Assembly (NCBI RefSeq): GCF_003731635.1
Contig: NZ_RCUA01000012.1
Location: forward strand, 62,001 to 126,000
Direction of reading: 5' to 3'
DNA from: Marisediminitalea oceani
Lineage (GTDB): Bacteria > Pseudomonadota > Gammaproteobacteria > Enterobacterales > Alteromonadaceae
DNA: 64,000 bases
The position numbers and the translations under genes were made by a program. Below, piece by piece: positions 1-49,723 of the stretch (positions within the stretch are counted from its first letter, which is position 1; each line of letters begins with the position of its first letter). The notes under the pieces were generated by a model. It searched no databases. It worked only from the letters and a program-made list of their open reading frames with translations, and was not told the DNA's origin.

Positions 1-326
1 TCCCGCACCAGTGGCTGATAATCTGACCTGTTGTGAAATACAACGTAATGATAAGGGTTCATGTAAGCCAAATCATAATTTGCCGCGGTTAACTCATCCT
101 CGAAACTGGGGATGTCTTTGGCAGTGATAAAGCTTAATGACAGACCGGTCTCCTGCGCAAGGTGCTGGAGCAGGGGAGTCCACATCTGAGCAAGTCGATA
201 AGCAGATTGCTGGGGCACTACACCGAAGGTGTATTGTGCTGGCTTCTCGGCAGGTGCCTGATTGCCTGAGTCGGCAAATACGTCGGTCGCCCCCAGAATA
301 GCCAGGATAACAAGCACAAATTTCAT
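1..326 (-). CDS. PhnD-like periplasmic substrate-binding protein, partial (3' end outside window)
   Basis: Only the first 108 codons are inside the window; the gene runs off the left edge. It starts at the ATG at 326. The product opens with a hydrophobic signal peptide (residues 1-18, ending ...VFA) followed by a mature start typical of the phosphate/phosphonate-binding family: a FGVVPQQ strand, then a helix with MWTPLLQHLAQETG, then the YDLAYMNPYHYV strand that is characteristic of PhnD-type proteins. In this family, members without a transporter next to them often act as the sensing subunit of a histidine kinase. It lies 25 bp downstream of a response-regulator gene on the same strand, so a signalling role is inferred; a kinase gene might follow beyond the edge. 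Confidence 0.8.
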   Translation of the reverse strand, partial: MKFVLVILAILGATDVFADSGNQAPAEKPAQYTFGVVPQQSAYRLAQMWTPLLQHLAQETGLSLSFITAKDIPSFEDELTAANYDLAYMNPYHYVVFHNRSDYQPLVR

Positions 327-351
327 ATTGCTCTCCGCTTTGATTTACCGT

Positions 352-912
352 TTATACCTGCATGAATTCTTCAAACAGTTGAGTCAGATCGTGATTTGAA
401 AACGGTTTGGTAAGGGTGGCGTCGGCGCCAAGTTCCTTAGCTTTTTCCAGGCTCGCATCGTCGAGCGCTGAAATCACAATAATTCTCAGACCACGCTGTG
501 ACTCCTGTTCACGGGTGTATTGCAATACACTGTAGCCGTCCATACCGGGCATGCTTAAATCAAGGGTCATTACCCGCGGTGAGTGCTGGCTCAGCATCAT
601 GCCTGCCTGAAAACCACCGGTAGCAATCAGCGTGTCGTAACCAGCGCGACGCGCCACCCGCTGGATGGATTTAGCCACTGGTAGTTCATCATCAACAATC
701 AGGATGAGCGGAGAAGCCTCGGGCTTGAGGCTATCCGGTATCGGCATATTATGGCGTTCCAGAAAATCGATAAAATCGTTGATCAGAACCCGGTTGTTGC
801 CACGGCCAGGTAATTTAAAGCCCTTTAACTTGCCGCTTTCCAGCCATCGGATAACCGTTCGGAGATTAACGTCACAATATTCGGCAATTTCGCCGGATGT
901 CAGTGTTTTCAC
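352..912 (-). CDS. Response regulator with N-terminal excisionase/MerR-like DNA-binding domain
   Basis: The 186-residue product has an inverted architecture: a winged helix-turn-helix of the excisionase/MerR type at residues 3-52 (LTSGEIAEYCDV, then a GKLKGFKLPGRG wing), and a receiver domain at 68-186. The receiver has the acidic pair D74-D75, phospho-acceptor D118, S148 and K169, all the residues expected of a phosphorylatable domain. The start is GTG at 912, chosen because GAGGA lies 6 nt upstream. It heads a two-gene unit with the PhnD-like gene and is divergent from the REC-EAL gene at 1101. It is probably a DNA-binding regulator of this locus. The cognate kinase is not visible. Confidence 0.9.
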   Translation of the reverse strand: MKTLTSGEIAEYCDVNLRTVIRWLESGKLKGFKLPGRGNNRVLINDFIDFLERHNMPIPDSLKPEASPLILIVDDELPVAKSIQRVARRAGYDTLIATGGFQAGMMLSQHSPRVMTLDLSMPGMDGYSVLQYTREQESQRGLRIIVISALDDASLEKAKELGADATLTKPFSNHDLTQLFEEFMQV

Positions 913-42913: not shown

Positions 42914-44812
42914 TTAAAAGCGATAGCTGGTATGCACCAGGAAACGCCGCTGGGCACCGCGGTAGCCAATGATATCTTCATAGTCTTCAGACAATGCATT
43001 ATCCACTCGGACCCCAAACTGCCACTGTTGGTTCCAGTCATAGTTCACGTTTATGCTGGTTAGCCAGTACGGATCAAGACTGACAACTTCGCCGCTGAAT
43101 GACGTGGGCGGGTAAAAGATATCCTGACGCACGCCGGTGTAATCTGCTTTGATATAAACAGATAAACCCTGAACCGCTAATGAATGGCGGTAGGTCACCG
43201 AGCCGGTATGGTTAGGGCGACGCAGTTCAACCGCCTGATCGGCACCATCACCGCTGGTGGCATCCAGATAGCTGTAGTGGGCAGTGAACTGCCAGGTATC
43301 AGCAACCCATTGCAGCGATGCTTCAAAGCCGTCGCGGCGGGAATCCTGACTGGCATTGGCCACCGAGCTTAAGCCACTGGCGCTGTCCCATACACTGGTG
43401 ATTTCGTTTTCCAGGCGCGTAGTAAATACGCTGAAATCGGCTGAAAGCTGACGGCTGAACTGGCTTTGCAGTCCCACTTCAAACTCCCTGCTTTGTTCTG
43501 GCTTGAGATCAGGGTTACCAATAAACTGGGCCGGATAATAGCCGTACAGCTCAGTGAAGTTTGGTGTTTTAACAGCCTGGCTGATGCTGGCAAAAACATT
43601 AACCTGACGGCTCAGGGCATAGTGTGCACCGGCGCGATAACTCCAGGCCTTTTCGAAGCGATCGTTATCGTCGTAGCGTACACTGAACTGCGTAGTCAGC
43701 TCATCTGTGCCCAGCCCGGTTAACTCTGCAAAAATACTGCTGGTGCTGTCATCGCCACGATAGTTCGGATCGCCCCAGTCAGATGGTCCTCGTTGTTCGA
43801 ACTCGCGACGAAGTAACTCAGTGCCAATAGCAAACTGGGCCACGTCGGTAGTGATAAACTGAGTCCAGTTCAGCTGCTTACGCTCTCCGGTGGTACCACC
43901 AGCGTCAAAACCGCTGGTCAGGTTGTCGTTATCATCCTTGTGGTACTGGGCTTTAAGTTCGCTGGTATAGCCTAACTCAGCGATAGCCAGGTTCCACTGT
44001 AAGTAGGAGGTTAACTGGTCGCCATCGGTAACGTTGTCGGCATCGGCTGGCAGGCCGGTAGTGAAGTCGCTTGCATCATAGTCGTTGCGATAATCAACCA
44101 TGCGTGCACCGGCCATAAAGGTGTTACTGGCGGTTGCCTGCCAGTTCAGTCCAAAACCGGCGGTGGTATTGCGGTAACCATCATCTTCGCCGCCGCTACG
44201 CGACACATTGTCGCCATCGGTATTAAAGTGATTGGCGTACAGAGACACGCTCAGGTTGTCCAGCGACTGCTGTGTTGAGACGGAAGCACGATAGGTGCTG
44301 GCGTTACCAATACCAGCACTCAGTGACGTGTTGTCATTACTCTCACTGCCCGCTTTAGTTGTGATGCTAAGTACACCAGACACCGCACCACTGCCCCACA
44401 GTGCACTTTGTGCACCACGGAGCAATTCAACTCTGGCAATGTTATCTGCGGTGAGGTGGGCAAAATCTACCAGACCGCCCTGGCTGAGGTCATTCACAAT
44501 CACGCCGTCGATCAATACCAACAGGTGATTGGTTTCGCTACCACGCAAACGCAGTTCGGTTAGTGAACCAGGGCTACCCGACTGACTCAGACTCACGCCG
44601 GGCATACCGCGTAATAAATCAGTTAACTGGGTAGCACCTGCAGCCTGAATATCTTCTTCGGTGAGGACTGAGACTGAGGCCGCCAGTTTGTCCAGGCTAA
44701 CCGGTAAACGAGAACCGGTAACAGTAATGGTTTCTACCGAGGATTGCTGGGCACAGGCAATGTTCGCGGCGCACGCAAGGGCTACCGCACAGGAAAGGGA
44801 TCGAATTTTCAT
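42914..44812 (-). CDS. btuB: Vitamin B12 outer-membrane TonB-dependent receptor BtuB
   Basis: A 632-residue outer-membrane receptor. Signal peptide residues 1-22 (ending NIACAQ) are followed by a TonB box-like ETITVTG, the plug domain (LPVSLDKLAASVSVLTEEDI to GSGAVSGVLSITTKAG) and a 22-strand barrel with a C-terminal HTSYRF aromatic end. Assignment to cobalamin rests on the clear cobalamin riboswitch upstream at 44885 and on general similarity in size and plug to BtuB. From the ATG at 44812; a TTG/ATG at 44833 would add 7 residues. B12 uptake genes are otherwise absent from the window. Confidence 0.9.
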   Translation of the reverse strand: MKIRSLSCAVALACAANIACAQQSSVETITVTGSRLPVSLDKLAASVSVLTEEDIQAAGATQLTDLLRGMPGVSLSQSGSPGSLTELRLRGSETNHLLVLIDGVIVNDLSQGGLVDFAHLTADNIARVELLRGAQSALWGSGAVSGVLSITTKAGSESNDNTSLSAGIGNASTYRASVSTQQSLDNLSVSLYANHFNTDGDNVSRSGGEDDGYRNTTAGFGLNWQATASNTFMAGARMVDYRNDYDASDFTTGLPADADNVTDGDQLTSYLQWNLAIAELGYTSELKAQYHKDDNDNLTSGFDAGGTTGERKQLNWTQFITTDVAQFAIGTELLRREFEQRGPSDWGDPNYRGDDSTSSIFAELTGLGTDELTTQFSVRYDDNDRFEKAWSYRAGAHYALSRQVNVFASISQAVKTPNFTELYGYYPAQFIGNPDLKPEQSREFEVGLQSQFSRQLSADFSVFTTRLENEITSVWDSASGLSSVANASQDSRRDGFEASLQWVADTWQFTAHYSYLDATSGDGADQAVELRRPNHTGSVTYRHSLAVQGLSVYIKADYTGVRQDIFYPPTSFSGEVVSLDPYWLTSINVNYDWNQQWQFGVRVDNALSEDYEDIIGYRGAQRRFLVHTSYRF

Positions 44813-44884
44813 AAAAGGCTCTTTTAACAGCACTCCCGCCGAGTGCTAAGACGGATAAGAAGTGGCAACCGGCCCGTTATGAGC

Positions 44885-45174: not shown

Positions 45175-47502
45175 TCATTGATTGGGCCAGGGCTTTAAAG
45201 GCAGCATGATTTGCGTGTCATTGTGCCATTTTATAGTTAGCGGCTCACCGGCATCGGCGCTGCTTTCGTGATTAACCGGCTTACCGGAGCCATGATTCAC
45301 CTGGGCATCCTGATTTTTGTTAACGTCTAGCACGATCGCCAGTCGGCTTCCTGGCTCAAGCAGCTTAGCCGTCATCCGCGCATTCACTATAGGCAGGGAC
45401 GTTTTCTCTCCCGGTGTAAGTAATTGTCGTTGTTGCATAGAGTGGGCATAGCTGGCCCTGCTGCGATAGGTATTTAAGTGAAACACCTCACCTTCTGCCG
45501 ATATGGCATTAAAGTTATAGCCTATATCAACATCCTGTTTGTTGGTGCTTATCACAATATTGCCGGTTATAGCGCCGGCCAGTTCCATTGGTGATGTAAA
45601 AGCTTCGGTGACATACACTAAGCCGGTTTCATCGTTGATCTTGTCCTGAATCAATGGCCAGGGGCTGACATTCCTTTGGGTGGTGCGATCGCCCATATCA
45701 ACCGTCATTTCGATACTGGCTGGCAGATGCTCCTGGCGGGTGAGTAACCGGTACTGACCATTTGCTTGTTGAGTGGTACCGAGATAATACTGCACGCCCC
45801 GGGAATTTAACCCGGCGAGTGATTCTGCATGCCGCCACTGATTGCTGCCCATCAACTGATAGTTAACCGGATGACTGAGTAGTGTTGGGATCTTCTTGTT
45901 GAATAACAAATGATCAAACCAACCAAACACAAGCTCTTCAGTGTCTTTGTCGAGCGCCACCGGATCGAGTGTGTAATTACTGAAGCTTTCCCACACCTTA
46001 CCCTGTGCAGTGCCGTGGGAGTACGGGCCAATCAGTAATCTGTGATCGGCATCGGGGTTAAACTGCTGATGACGCTTCATGTAATCCAGCGCTGATATCT
46101 GCCCACCATCGAAGTAGCCGGTCACGGTCAGTACCGGGATCGTGATATGACGATACTCTTCTCCTACCGGCACCATCGACTGGTAGTACTCATCGAAGTC
46201 AGGGTGAGCCATCCAGCGTTGCCACCAAGGGTTCGGTGTGCCGTCGAGTTCTGGCAATTTGGTTATCGGTAGCCCGCTTTGGTAAAACTGGCTCAGCAGC
46301 TCATTTCGTTTGGCCCAGTCGGCATACACGGTGTCATCCATAGTCTTGTTATTGGTAACATGAAAAGCCCACTCATAATTGGCAGTTAATACAATGTTGT
46401 TTTCGTAAGGCAGGCCGGTGATCAGGCTGGCTGCTGCATACGGGGCGATGGCTTTTAGTGCTTTCGGCATGTGTTTAGCGGCGGCCCACTGAGTAAAACC
46501 GTTGTAACTGCCTCCGTACATCACCACGTCACCATTGCTCCAGGGCTGGTGGCTAATCCACTCAATGACAGCTGCTGCGTCTTCACCTTCATGTTCCCAG
46601 GGGGTAATGGGGTTGCTACTAAGGCGTTTCCCTCTGGAATTCGCTATAACGCCAACATAACCGTGGGAAGCAGCATGAATCGCCATAGTAAGGTGTGAGC
46701 GCTCGTCGGCGTATATCGTGAATTGCATTGCGGTGGGTAATGTAGTGGCTGATTGTTTTGGCTGCACGATGGTGAGCGTTAACTCAACGCCCCCGGCTAA
46801 CTTCACCAGCCTGGCCGGTTCGATGCGATAGCGGTGTTGGTTTTCAGCGGCAATTATCTCACTGCTTACCGGGATCACTGATTTCAGCACATGGTAGAGA
46901 TGAACGTTGGTAACCAGTGATATCACTTGCTCTTCATCCAGAGAAGGGAGCGCCTGATACTGTTTTAACAGGTTAATGACATAATCAAGCGCCCTTTGCA
47001 CTGACCAGCCAAGCGAATCTTGTAACTGATATAAACTCTCGTTGCTGAGTATACTTACTTGTTGCTGGATATGTTCCCTGAGTTTGTCGGCAAAAACAGG
47101 CTTTGGCGCGTTAGGATGTTGCCTCAGAGCTTCGTGAAATAAACGATAATGACTATAAGATACGCCATTTTTTTCACTATCCAGCAAAGTGAGTAAAACC
47201 TGATGCTGATTTAATATGGAAAGCAAAGCAACCCGGTTAAATAGTGTCTGGCTATTGATTGTGTCAGCTGGCAAATTCGTGGCAAGCGCCACAAGTTGCT
47301 GGTTAAAAGCCGTATTGTTTAACAGGCTGATTGCTGCACTCTCGCTGGAGAGTTCACTTTCTGTTAAAGCCGCTGGGGTAGGTGCGTTATTGCCGGCTGC
47401 CAGGCTACTCTGCGTCATACTGGCAAACACAAATAAGTAGAAAAGCGCCAGAATAAGCCAGGTTTTGATGTGGTTTAAGGTACAACACGCTAACGTTAAC
47501 AC
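45175..47502 (-). CDS. CocE/NonD-type serine hydrolase (X-Pro peptidase family), exported, with long N-terminal domain
   Basis: A 775-residue alpha/beta hydrolase of the CocE/X-Pro dipeptidyl-peptidase group. The nucleophile S332 is in GGSYNGF, the acid D465 in GYFDGG and the base H496 in YSHGTAQG. The C-terminal jelly-roll (560-775) is typical. A signal-like hydrophobic segment (TWLILALFYLFVFASMTQSSLA) precedes about 190 extra helical residues (35-225) ahead of the catalytic core, which is longer than in usual CocE proteins. It is divergent from the membrane regulator at 47642. It is likely an exported peptidase or esterase; the substrate is unknown. Confidence 0.82.
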   Translation of the reverse strand: MLTLACCTLNHIKTWLILALFYLFVFASMTQSSLAAGNNAPTPAALTESELSSESAAISLLNNTAFNQQLVALATNLPADTINSQTLFNRVALLSILNQHQVLLTLLDSEKNGVSYSHYRLFHEALRQHPNAPKPVFADKLREHIQQQVSILSNESLYQLQDSLGWSVQRALDYVINLLKQYQALPSLDEEQVISLVTNVHLYHVLKSVIPVSSEIIAAENQHRYRIEPARLVKLAGGVELTLTIVQPKQSATTLPTAMQFTIYADERSHLTMAIHAASHGYVGVIANSRGKRLSSNPITPWEHEGEDAAAVIEWISHQPWSNGDVVMYGGSYNGFTQWAAAKHMPKALKAIAPYAAASLITGLPYENNIVLTANYEWAFHVTNNKTMDDTVYADWAKRNELLSQFYQSGLPITKLPELDGTPNPWWQRWMAHPDFDEYYQSMVPVGEEYRHITIPVLTVTGYFDGGQISALDYMKRHQQFNPDADHRLLIGPYSHGTAQGKVWESFSNYTLDPVALDKDTEELVFGWFDHLLFNKKIPTLLSHPVNYQLMGSNQWRHAESLAGLNSRGVQYYLGTTQQANGQYRLLTRQEHLPASIEMTVDMGDRTTQRNVSPWPLIQDKINDETGLVYVTEAFTSPMELAGAITGNIVISTNKQDVDIGYNFNAISAEGEVFHLNTYRSRASYAHSMQQRQLLTPGEKTSLPIVNARMTAKLLEPGSRLAIVLDVNKNQDAQVNHGSGKPVNHESSADAGEPLTIKWHNDTQIMLPLKPWPNQ

Positions 47503-47580
47503 GTCGATCTCCTTTAGTTCAGGTACCGTTATTTGATGGGTAACAGCCTAAATAAAAAGGGAAAAAACGCATGACCAAAC

Positions 47581-47603
47581 GATGATTTTTGATGATTTAT
47601 AAT
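47581..47603 (+). promoter_or_regulatory. Direct repeat and perfect -10 in the regulator/hydrolase gap
   Basis: GATGATTT at 47581-47588 and 47591-47598, spaced 10 bp start to start, ends in a perfect TATAAT at 47598-47603. No -35 box is seen 17 bp upstream. A 10-bp-spaced direct repeat over the -35 area fits an OmpR/PhoB-type winged-helix activator, such as the adjacent gene product. Confidence 0.5.
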
Positions 47604-47641
47604 GATCCGATGCAAACCAACGTGGTATTTTTAGCCAAACA

Positions 47642-49723
47642 GTGAAGCAGGGCACTCTCATGCGCTGGCAAATAGCCAATTATCAGTTTTGTGAACAGCA
47701 GCAGACGCTCTCTTCGTCTTCTGAGATGTTGCAGCTTGAACCTTTGATGGTAGAGCTGTTGGCTTATTTTTGTCGGCACCCCAATGAAATCATTAGTGTT
47801 GATCAACTGATTGACCAGGTCTGGCAGGGCCGGGTTGTCACCGACAATGCGGTTAGCCGACTGATCACCAAATTGCGCCGCGCCTTTGCAGACGATGTCA
47901 GACAACCTAAGTTTATTGCGACATTTCCTAAGAAGGGCTACAAGTTTGTGGCCCCGGTAGCGAGGATTGATGAATATGATGCTCAATCTTTAATGCCTGA
48001 TGGCGCGCAGGTGACGCGACCTGAGACCGACGAAAAGACTGCTGAGGCCGGTTGGTCCTTTCTGAAACTTCCCTTTATTGCCGTGCTTCTCGTTGTAATC
48101 TTGGTAATGGTCTTCTGGCAAGTGTGGCAAGCGCCGCAACCGTCAGCAAGGTTTGCCCGCGCGCTCACTTCTATGGATGGTAATGAAGTCTTTCCGTCGT
48201 TTAGCGCTGATGGGCGTCGAATGGCGTTTATGTCGGTTAAGGCACAGCGTTTACGGCTGATGATCAAAGACTTACACAACGGTAATAGCACTGAAATAAA
48301 CCACCCCGATGGGTTGAATACCGGGCCAGGTGATTGGAGCAAACAGGGTGACAAGCTGGTTTACCTCGCCGCATCAGCACAGCGGTGTGAATACTATATC
48401 GTTGAGATAAAAGGTTTAATCATAGGTGAGCCGCGACTTATCCACCGTTGTCCGGCCGGCAGTTACGGTAAAGTCTTGTTTACCCATAATGATCAGCGAG
48501 TGGTGTTCAGTGAGAATGCTGGTCCGGGAACGCCTTACTCTATCTATGAGCTGGATTTAACAACCCAAAGTAAACGTCGCCTAAATCAGCCGGACCTTTA
48601 TTTATCTGGCAACAGCCAGTTTGATTTGCACCCCCATAATGATAAGTTGCTTATTTCCTCGCCAGATAAGCAACAATGGGAGGGCTTTTATGCGCTGGAT
48701 TTAACAACCAACAAACTCGATCTGTTATTTAAACAGGATGCTTATATCTGTTGTGGCATTTGGGATCATGCGGGAGAGAATGTCATCCTCATGGGGGAAC
48801 ATCCTGCTTATCAATTACTTAGTTATGATTTAGCGGGAAACAATAAGCAGGTTATCTTTTCAGGCAGTCGCCGCATAAGTTTACCCCGCCGGTTTAACAA
48901 TGGAGCTGACTACGTATTTTTGTCTGGCGATAAGCACACGGACATTCAAATTCTTGATTTAGAGAGTGGTGAAGTGGGCAGTATTGCTAACGATACGGTC
49001 GATGAGCTGCTGGCGACATTCTCTACTAATCATCAGGTCATCGGCTACATTAGTATGGCTTCTGGTAAAGAGCAGGTCTGGAAATACGATCTGGCCTCGG
49101 GAGAACGCAGAAAAATCACCGCGTTTACCGACAGTCGCCATTACCTGGATTTACACTGGTCTCCGGACGACCGCTATATAGCCGGGCTTACCTTTAACGA
49201 GTTGCACTTGATTGACTCTACTACCGGCGAGATATCCATTGTTGATTTTCCGCAAACTGAAATTCGCGGTGTGTCGTTTAAATCTGCATCTGAGCTGAGC
49301 TTCAGTGCTAAAGAAGGCGAGCGCTGGCGCGTTTATACCTATCATCTTATCACCCACGCAATTACGGCAGAAGCGCCGACATGGTCGTACATTCAATACA
49401 GCGCCAACGAGCAAAATACATTATGGTATTCGGTCGATAACCGGCTTTTTTATTCCAATGCGCGTATTGAATTAAGCCGTTCGGAAATACCTGGATCTGC
49501 GCTGCTTAACGGCAGGCAGTGGAACCTACGAAAGCGAGGTGAGCAGTGGTTTTGGTATAGCCGCAAAGACGAAGGCCAGATCTACAGGTACGATGGACTT
49601 ACCAACGAGCTGGAAGTACTGGTTGGATCTCAAACAGGTCATTTTGATATTCAGCATGGTGCTTTGCTGTATACAACAAGTAGTGAAGCACAAACTAACC
49701 TGTTCAGAACGGTTGGCGAGTAA
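47642..49723 (+). CDS. ToxR/CadC-like membrane regulator with a beta-propeller sensor domain
   Basis: A 693-residue one-component regulator. The N-terminus (residues 8-105) is an OmpR/PhoB-type winged helix (ISVDQLIDQVWQGRVVTDNAVSRLITKLRRAF and KGYKFVAPV). One membrane helix (142-160) follows, then a periplasmic domain of about 520 residues made of TolB/WD40-like repeats (FPSFSADGRRMAF, FDLHPHNDKLLIS, DLHWSPDDRYIAG). It starts with GTG at 47642, or ATG at 47660. It is divergent from the CocE-like hydrolase, a likely target. Such propeller-type regulators next to peptidases occur in Alteromonadales. Ligand unknown. Confidence 0.85.
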   Translation: MKQGTLMRWQIANYQFCEQQQTLSSSSEMLQLEPLMVELLAYFCRHPNEIISVDQLIDQVWQGRVVTDNAVSRLITKLRRAFADDVRQPKFIATFPKKGYKFVAPVARIDEYDAQSLMPDGAQVTRPETDEKTAEAGWSFLKLPFIAVLLVVILVMVFWQVWQAPQPSARFARALTSMDGNEVFPSFSADGRRMAFMSVKAQRLRLMIKDLHNGNSTEINHPDGLNTGPGDWSKQGDKLVYLAASAQRCEYYIVEIKGLIIGEPRLIHRCPAGSYGKVLFTHNDQRVVFSENAGPGTPYSIYELDLTTQSKRRLNQPDLYLSGNSQFDLHPHNDKLLISSPDKQQWEGFYALDLTTNKLDLLFKQDAYICCGIWDHAGENVILMGEHPAYQLLSYDLAGNNKQVIFSGSRRISLPRRFNNGADYVFLSGDKHTDIQILDLESGEVGSIANDTVDELLATFSTNHQVIGYISMASGKEQVWKYDLASGERRKITAFTDSRHYLDLHWSPDDRYIAGLTFNELHLIDSTTGEISIVDFPQTEIRGVSFKSASELSFSAKEGERWRVYTYHLITHAITAEAPTWSYIQYSANEQNTLWYSVDNRLFYSNARIELSRSEIPGSALLNGRQWNLRKRGEQWFWYSRKDEGQIYRYDGLTNELEVLVGSQTGHFDIQHGALLYTTSSEAQTNLFRTVGE

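Follow-up and report, generated by a model that had tools for sequence, protein, structure and literature searches.

In the 64,000-nucleotide stretch analysed here (the window; G000:C4:62001-126000, within a 5.0-Mb genome), the gene for a ToxR/CadC-like one-component regulator diverges from the gene for a CocE/NonD-type (S15) alpha/beta-hydrolase. The gap between the two genes carries an array of four direct repeats. This array accompanies one clade of the regulator through the family, and it is kept when the facing enzyme is exchanged for one of another class. We consider it probable that the regulator activates this swappable, exported enzyme and restrains its own expression. The features of the pair are collected in Table 1.

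Table 1. Features of the divergent gene pair. Nucleotide positions are those of the window, residue numbers those of the regulator; promoter elements are predictions, and protein segments are taken from the structure model.
Feature	Position	Strand	Details
CocE/NonD-type (S15) alpha/beta-hydrolase gene	45175..47502	(-)	ORF, 775 aa
Predicted hydrolase -10, TAGGCT	47550-47545	(-)	TANNNT slot
Array TGAC-N7-TGAT-N6-TGAT-N6-TGAT	47572..47606	(+)	boxes start at 47572, 47583, 47593, 47603
TATAAT	47598..47603	(+)	from the last bases of the box-3 unit to the first of box 4; oriented towards regulator
Predicted regulator extended -10, TGGTATTTT	47623..47631	(+)	TGNTA slot
ToxR/CadC-like one-component regulator gene	47660..49723	(+)	687 aa; full ORF 47642-49723
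Winged helix	residues ~1-103		model
Linker, then TM-like helix	residues 137-156		model; within hydrophobic stretch
First propeller, TolB-like	residues ~163-415		model
Second propeller	residues ~420-687		model

The regulator was matched at E <= 1e-30 in 39 of the 147 genomes of the family. A closer set of 22 genomes was delimited at E <= 1e-70, a cut-off chosen after the list had been viewed; the regulators just past it (G095, 1.9e-68; G061, 1.2e-66) both belong to an HlyD-linked subfamily. The sequence-only reading had proposed a search for the divergent pair in other genomes, and the pair does recur: a CocE/S15 hydrolase gene is divergent to the close regulator in 18 of the 22. The hydrolase is therefore the usual partner but not the only one, as the remaining four genomes have a PF00144 serine hydrolase (two), a DJ-1/PfpI protein (one) or a metallo-beta-lactamase-fold protein (one) in its place. 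Viewed from the enzyme, S15 matches at E <= 1e-100 were found in 19 of the 147 genomes; 18 of these adjoin a close regulator, divergently, and the 19th sits on a contig of 3,956 bases. In a scan of the whole order the regulator was matched at E <= 1e-100 in 16 of 394 genomes, and it is uncommon and patchy across the order.

According to the ORF lists, the genes that flank the pair vary by genus in number, size and strand, so that the unit appears to be the pair. The hydrolase gene is followed on its own strand by a TonB-dependent receptor gene (window 42914-44833). An ORF of equal length (639 aa), matched by length alone, stands at its place in L080 and L082, and hence the receptor is probably outside a wider cassette. 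The pair is also patchy within the genus of the window, dividing G000, G129 and G346 from G024, G068, G100 and G356, which have the same genus code, and the regulator of the genus-mate G129 (L072) is placed in another part of the tree; together these observations suggest horizontal transfer of the cassette. At L063:5492-7829 (G101) the S15 gene consists of two overlapping ORFs with the regulator and the array intact, which would reflect a frameshift or an assembly error.

The hydrolase had Pfam/NCBIfam matches to CocE_NonD, Peptidase_S15 and PepX_C. Its scores exceed the cut-offs for TIGR00976 (176.1 versus 66.3), PF02129 (131 versus 23) and PF08530 (50.6 versus 22.5), which place it in the CocE/NonD (TIGR00976) / S15 family with predicted ester or amide hydrolysis. 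The protein is laid out as a signal-like N-terminal segment, a helical region of about 180 residues, a catalytic domain and a PepX_C-like domain. Signal-like N-termini, here and in the other partner enzymes, were judged by eye, and they point to export; the family scores and this segment agree with the exported CocE-like hydrolase of the sequence-only reading. In the structure model (pLDDT 86, pTM 0.85), residues 224-772 aligned with CocE (1l7q; Z 30.7, rmsd 3.0, 523 aligned) and with the alpha-amino acid ester hydrolase (AEH) 1ryy (Z 29.1, rmsd 3.2, 520 aligned; AEH matches had Z 28-29). Residues ~44-224 form an extra helical region in the model that was barely covered by the fold search. The hydrolase thus has the catalytic and C-terminal fold and the Ser-Asp-His motifs in common with CocE and the AEHs; it is about 22% identical to CocE, and it differs from both in its helical N-terminal region and signal-like N-terminus. 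The putative triad S332, D465 and H496 falls in motifs that align with those of CocE. S332 and H496 are invariant in 22 hydrolase homologues, and position 465 is Asp in 19 of the 22, while L070 and L072 have Glu and L065 lacks the residue. The proteins with a variant Asp in the GYFDGG motif (L065:7278-9617 from G119, which has GYF-GAS; L070:5066-7432 from G019; and L072:7137-9470 from G129) possibly have altered activity.

For the regulator, the point from where homologues begin suggests the ATG at 47660 (MRWQIA) as the start. It had Pfam/NCBIfam matches to Trans_reg_C and to PD40/TolB-like propellers. The Trans_reg_C score (59.1 bits versus a cut-off of 26.2) indicates an N-terminal winged helix of the OmpR/PhoB type, whose best PDB profile matches were CadC (5ju7) and ToxR (7nmb, 8b4b, 8b4c), with PhoB also matched; the earlier assignment as a ToxR/CadC-like membrane regulator is supported. 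With 85.6 bits against a curated cut-off of 400, the protein falls outside the CadC equivalog NF007540. Its large beta-propeller, also part of the earlier description, is present in the sequence, but the model (pLDDT 86, pTM 0.70) resolves it into two propellers. Residues 159-415 aligned with TolB (2ivz; Z 24.3, rmsd 2.6, 242 aligned). For the whole sensor the structure matches were double propellers such as LRP6 (Z ~19, rmsd 20), which speak for the general arrangement only. From the model we infer that the winged helix lies inside the cell and the two propellers in the periplasm. C243, C264 and the adjacent pair C364-C365 are retained in 29 of 29 aligned regulators, and a disulfide-based switch or lid is conceivable.

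Alignment of the gaps on their repeats gave four boxes, TGAY-N7-TGAY-N6-TGAY-N6-TGAY, on the regulator strand with a spacing of 11-10-10. The 10-bp-spaced repeat described earlier for the window, GATGATTT at 47581-47588 and 47591-47598, is there, and it is only half of the array, being boxes 2 and 3. Of 40 gaps scored, 26 had 16/16, 12 had 15, one had 14 (L060, S15) and one had 13 (L133, DJ-1). The 30 non-redundant gaps included 19 with 16/16 and 28 with 15-16, and dinucleotide shuffles of these 30 (n=9000) gave none at 16/16 and two at 15. The pattern had been defined on part of the same gap set; among seven gaps seen later (L124, L126, L127, L128, L131, L132 and L133), six scored 15-16, and L133 is the gap with 13. 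Searched over the 147 genomes, the strict pattern matched 24 times, in 21 genomes; 16 matches lie in gaps of the regulator family and eight elsewhere, the latter despite the complete lack of matches to the reversed pattern used as a control. One strict match, in G023:C9 before a CBM9/glucuronyl-esterase-like gene, has no -10 at the slot and a profile E of 0.034, and is probably due to chance.

A profile, R1, was made from 28 arrays with the array of the window held out. It ranked the held-out array at the top of its genome (29.1 bits), ahead of a partial match with 14.7. Over the 147 genomes, with stricter filters that lose weak matches, R1 found 24 sites with E <= 0.001, spread over 22 genomes, and 23 of the 24 lie in regulator gaps. 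These 22 genomes are the same 22 that have a close regulator, each with one or two sites, and none of the 125 others has a site. Because 19 of the 22 supplied training arrays, presence in those is by construction; given this overlap and the filters, the weight falls on the genomes with no site, on the low number of sites in each of the others (one or two) and on the window array that was held out. The array behaves like a regulator-specific operator, and binding of the regulator to it is predicted. A profile site in G119:C29 (E 7e-4) was set aside, as it falls within an ORF.

PhoB recognizes Pho-boxes, head-to-tail sites with an 11-bp period that serve a global regulon, and is itself a soluble response regulator. 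Like the Pho-box, the array consists of head-to-tail sites for an OmpR/PhoB-type winged helix; its unit, GTCAYNAAAA when read towards the hydrolase, resembles the Pho-box half-site, and PhoB was among the winged helices matched. The array could thus belong to PhoB or to another global regulator, with the membrane regulator a bystander. However, its main period is 10, not 11, and a global regulator should have many sites that do not track this regulator gene. Even with the caveats on training set and filters, the distribution of R1 sites makes such an assignment highly improbable.

A search for a wider regulon in the genome of the window gave eight matches with up to two mismatches versus three for the reversed control, and no second strong profile site. 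One intergenic four-box match with a single mismatch, L116 (G000:C68:133102-133136), is a possible weak second site; R1 had no match there. The array was absent, by eye and by scoring, from the gaps of distant regulators that adjoin HlyD (L028, L029, L033) or DUF5916/CBM9 genes (L030, L032, L136); array scoring of L134-L136 gave 12.9. No R1 sites were found in the family genomes of the HlyD- or DUF5916/CBM9-linked distant regulators. The gaps of L028, L029, L031 and L034, all with distant propeller regulators and the first two adjoining HlyD-type genes, have TGACYAAACTGTGAC upstream, perhaps the operator type of a sister subfamily.

Beyond the boxes, the information content of the gaps has two peaks, which coincide with two promoter slots; promoters were read against the sigma-70 hexamers. 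On the hydrolase side, 20 of 29 gaps contain TANNNT at -23 to -28 (±1) relative to box 1, compared with 7.8% of shuffled flanks, and the other nine lack it; the -35 is degenerate and touches box 1. On the regulator side, TGNTA occurs at +50 (±1) in 20 of 29 gaps versus 2.0% of shuffled flanks, and the TANNNT of the slot is missing in six; here box 4 (ATGACC-like) occupies the -35 slot of the predicted promoter. Both slots were defined on the same gaps, and the two in-trans sites of G468 described below provide an independent check of the one on the hydrolase side. The perfect TATAAT without a -35, which had been taken for the hydrolase promoter, does exist, and the hexamer 17 bp above it reads CCAAAC; it reads towards the regulator, however, and so could not serve the hydrolase. 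It is also not conserved among the near relatives of the window: L080 and L082 have TATAAT, L081 has TATGAT and L083 has TATGGT, while the adjoining TGAT of box 4 is kept in all four. The TATAAT is probably fortuitous.

The divergent partners in the 40 gaps are S15 hydrolases in 31, PF00144 proteins (class C/AmpH-like, S12) in five, DJ-1/PfpI proteins in two and metallo-beta-lactamase-fold (MBL-fold) proteins in two. The array has 15-16 of 16 in all gaps except L060 and L133, and it is thus kept with S12 (L071, L074, L088, L089), DJ-1 (L068) and MBL-fold partners (L137, L138). Signal-like N-termini were also seen on the non-S15 partners, where read. The S12-linked regulators and that of L068 are 39-44% identical to the regulator of the window, and the MBL-linked ones 27-28%. 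In a regulator tree of 46 rows, made with a quick method and with the root not inferred, the four S12-linked rows cluster as a single starred group that lies among the S15-linked regulators, as does L068, and a group with MBL and DJ-1 partners stands apart. Six partner changes are needed over the six partner labels when rows with unknown partners are left out.

Two genomes look like intermediates of partner exchange. In G460 (L196), an S15 and an S12 ORF overlap by 11 bp (mechanical starts) behind one array, and the S12 ORF shares 54% identity with the Rheinheimera partner. In G468 an S15 gene lies opposite the regulator, and two further arrays, each with four perfect boxes, lie elsewhere in the genome. 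The second array (11-10-10) precedes an orphan S12 (PF00144) gene (L175:3647-5197) whose product is 41% identical to the Rheinheimera partner and has an N-terminus with a lipobox-like LLTSC. The third (11-11-10) precedes a gene whose 199-aa product has a signal-like N-terminus (L176:2340-2939). Both sites are oriented alike to their targets, and the -10 slot on the target side (±1) reads TAACCT; the regulator-side extended -10 is present in neither, and no regulator of this family is adjacent to either target. The two genes are predicted regulon members, and these sites are our strongest evidence for regarding the enzymes as targets and not simply as adjacent genes. They also qualify the self-contained circuit suggested earlier: given the single strong site in the genome of the window, a nearly self-contained circuit is supported, with extra sites in G468. 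In the 30 regulator genomes, S12 homologues occupy 17 places. The four best (43-80% identity) have the array in front (three) or lie behind an S15 gene and its array (one), and none of the other 13 has an 11-10-10 array of at least 14/16 in the stretch examined.

The gap might be conserved merely for its two promoters, with partners that are neighbours by descent and not regulated, since each of the two predicted core promoters adjoins the conserved block or runs into it. That explanation seems very unlikely: the boxes are the best conserved columns of the gaps, they outlast partner exchange, and in G468 they recur before the PF00144 and 199-aa genes in the absence of an adjacent family regulator.

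The arrangement we favour is one in which the regulator would sit in the inner membrane, the winged helix facing the cytoplasm and the two beta-propellers lying in the periplasm. The winged helices would bind head to tail on the four TGAY boxes, which at 11-10-10 bp would lie on one face of the helix. On the enzyme side, the array reaches the edge of the -35 slot, and the promoter there has a poor -35 and TANNNT as its -10, a layout as expected of activator dependence, which suggests activation. On the regulator side, box 4 lies on the -35 of the extended -10 promoter, so that binding should limit transcription of the regulator. The direction of control is read from promoter geometry only, and repression would give the same footprint. 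With the same regulator and operator, the bound regulator could repress both divergent genes and release them once the propellers bind their signal; in favour of this, the -35 slot of the regulator promoter lies under box 4, and that of the hydrolase promoter abuts box 1. We regard it as unlikely, though deserving some weight, because the -35 by box 1 is poor and the two in-trans targets keep only the hydrolase-type side, as for activator-dependent promoters. In the portions of the literature drawn on, moreover, CadC is described as activating, and ToxR as an activator, repressor or coactivator.

If the regulator is an activator, a periplasmic signal read by the propellers would turn the enzyme on, and this signal would probably be a small molecule or fragment related to the substrate of the enzyme. 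Sensors with the same core are found with unrelated enzyme folds; a compound class or an envelope cue is therefore a more likely signal than either the enzyme or a single precise product. Likewise, the shift of enzyme class to PF00144 or DJ-1 while the regulator stays 39-44% identical speaks against a sensor fitted solely to a CocE product. The propellers could also sense the partner enzyme itself, through a protein-protein interaction that feeds back the level or substrate state of the enzyme, and TolB-type propellers do bind proteins and peptides (according to PDB titles). This appears quite unlikely, as the same invariant propeller residues are found across S15-, S12- and DJ-1-linked sensors (29 rows, with MBL-linked ones left out).

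Beta-lactam-acting members are known among the class C and the metallo-beta-lactamases. For the AEHs there is a structure with ampicillin (PDB 1nx9), and such members in all three hydrolase folds would fit a signal class that unrelated folds can cleave. We can sketch, as a rather doubtful extension, double-propeller ToxR-type sensors as an exchangeable control platform, in which the sensor and the four-box operator persist while S15, PF00144 and MBL-fold hydrolases and the DJ-1 protein are swapped. The common signal class might then be acyl-amide, lactam or D-amino-acyl compounds, and the whole an inducible circuit for periplasmic breakdown or detoxification.

Membrane one-component regulators that diverge from their target are a known kind. 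As in E. coli CadC and the ToxR-like family, the regulator has an N-terminal OmpR/PhoB-type winged helix, and it is predicted to share with them one TM helix and a large periplasmic sensor; the sensor modelled as two propellers is unlike theirs. In the published accounts, as far as covered, membrane-bound ToxR-like proteins contact DNA with a PhoB-like winged helix (PMC5430869, PMC8517210). The CadC site Cad1 is described as two head-to-head TTAxxxxT sites (PMC5430869, in the part used), in contrast to the four direct repeats here. The ToxR tox-box, given as TNAAA-N5-TNAAA in the portion of PMC8517210 consulted, shares its 10-bp period with the array; the conserved part here differs, being RTCAY in four copies with one 11-bp step. 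A strict tox-box as the operator was rejected, as it occurs in six of the 30 non-redundant arrays and is absent from that of the window. The first propeller is TolB-like, although only 15% identical to TolB and joined in one polypeptide with a DNA-binding domain and another propeller. Also close by description are the POP homologues with a transcription regulatory domain, for example from Shewanella, that were listed in 2014 (PMC4522959); these are propeller-protease-related sequences that may resemble the regulator, and the text covered from that source gives no operator, partner or function for them. In the open-licence literature searched, we found no paper on the operator, target or signal of a regulator of this wider type, and did not meet the four-box operator, its link to a regulator clade or the exchange of enzyme classes.

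Regulators of the wider type are common in the family, as the 39 genomes attest. Because the operator has a defined layout and usually occurs once per genome, the enzymes are exchangeable and one relative has two in-trans sites, the regulon becomes predictable, and the question of the propeller ligand becomes directly testable. The same four-part site beside unrelated enzymes has the appearance of a dedicated circuit that can be reused to control exported enzymes.
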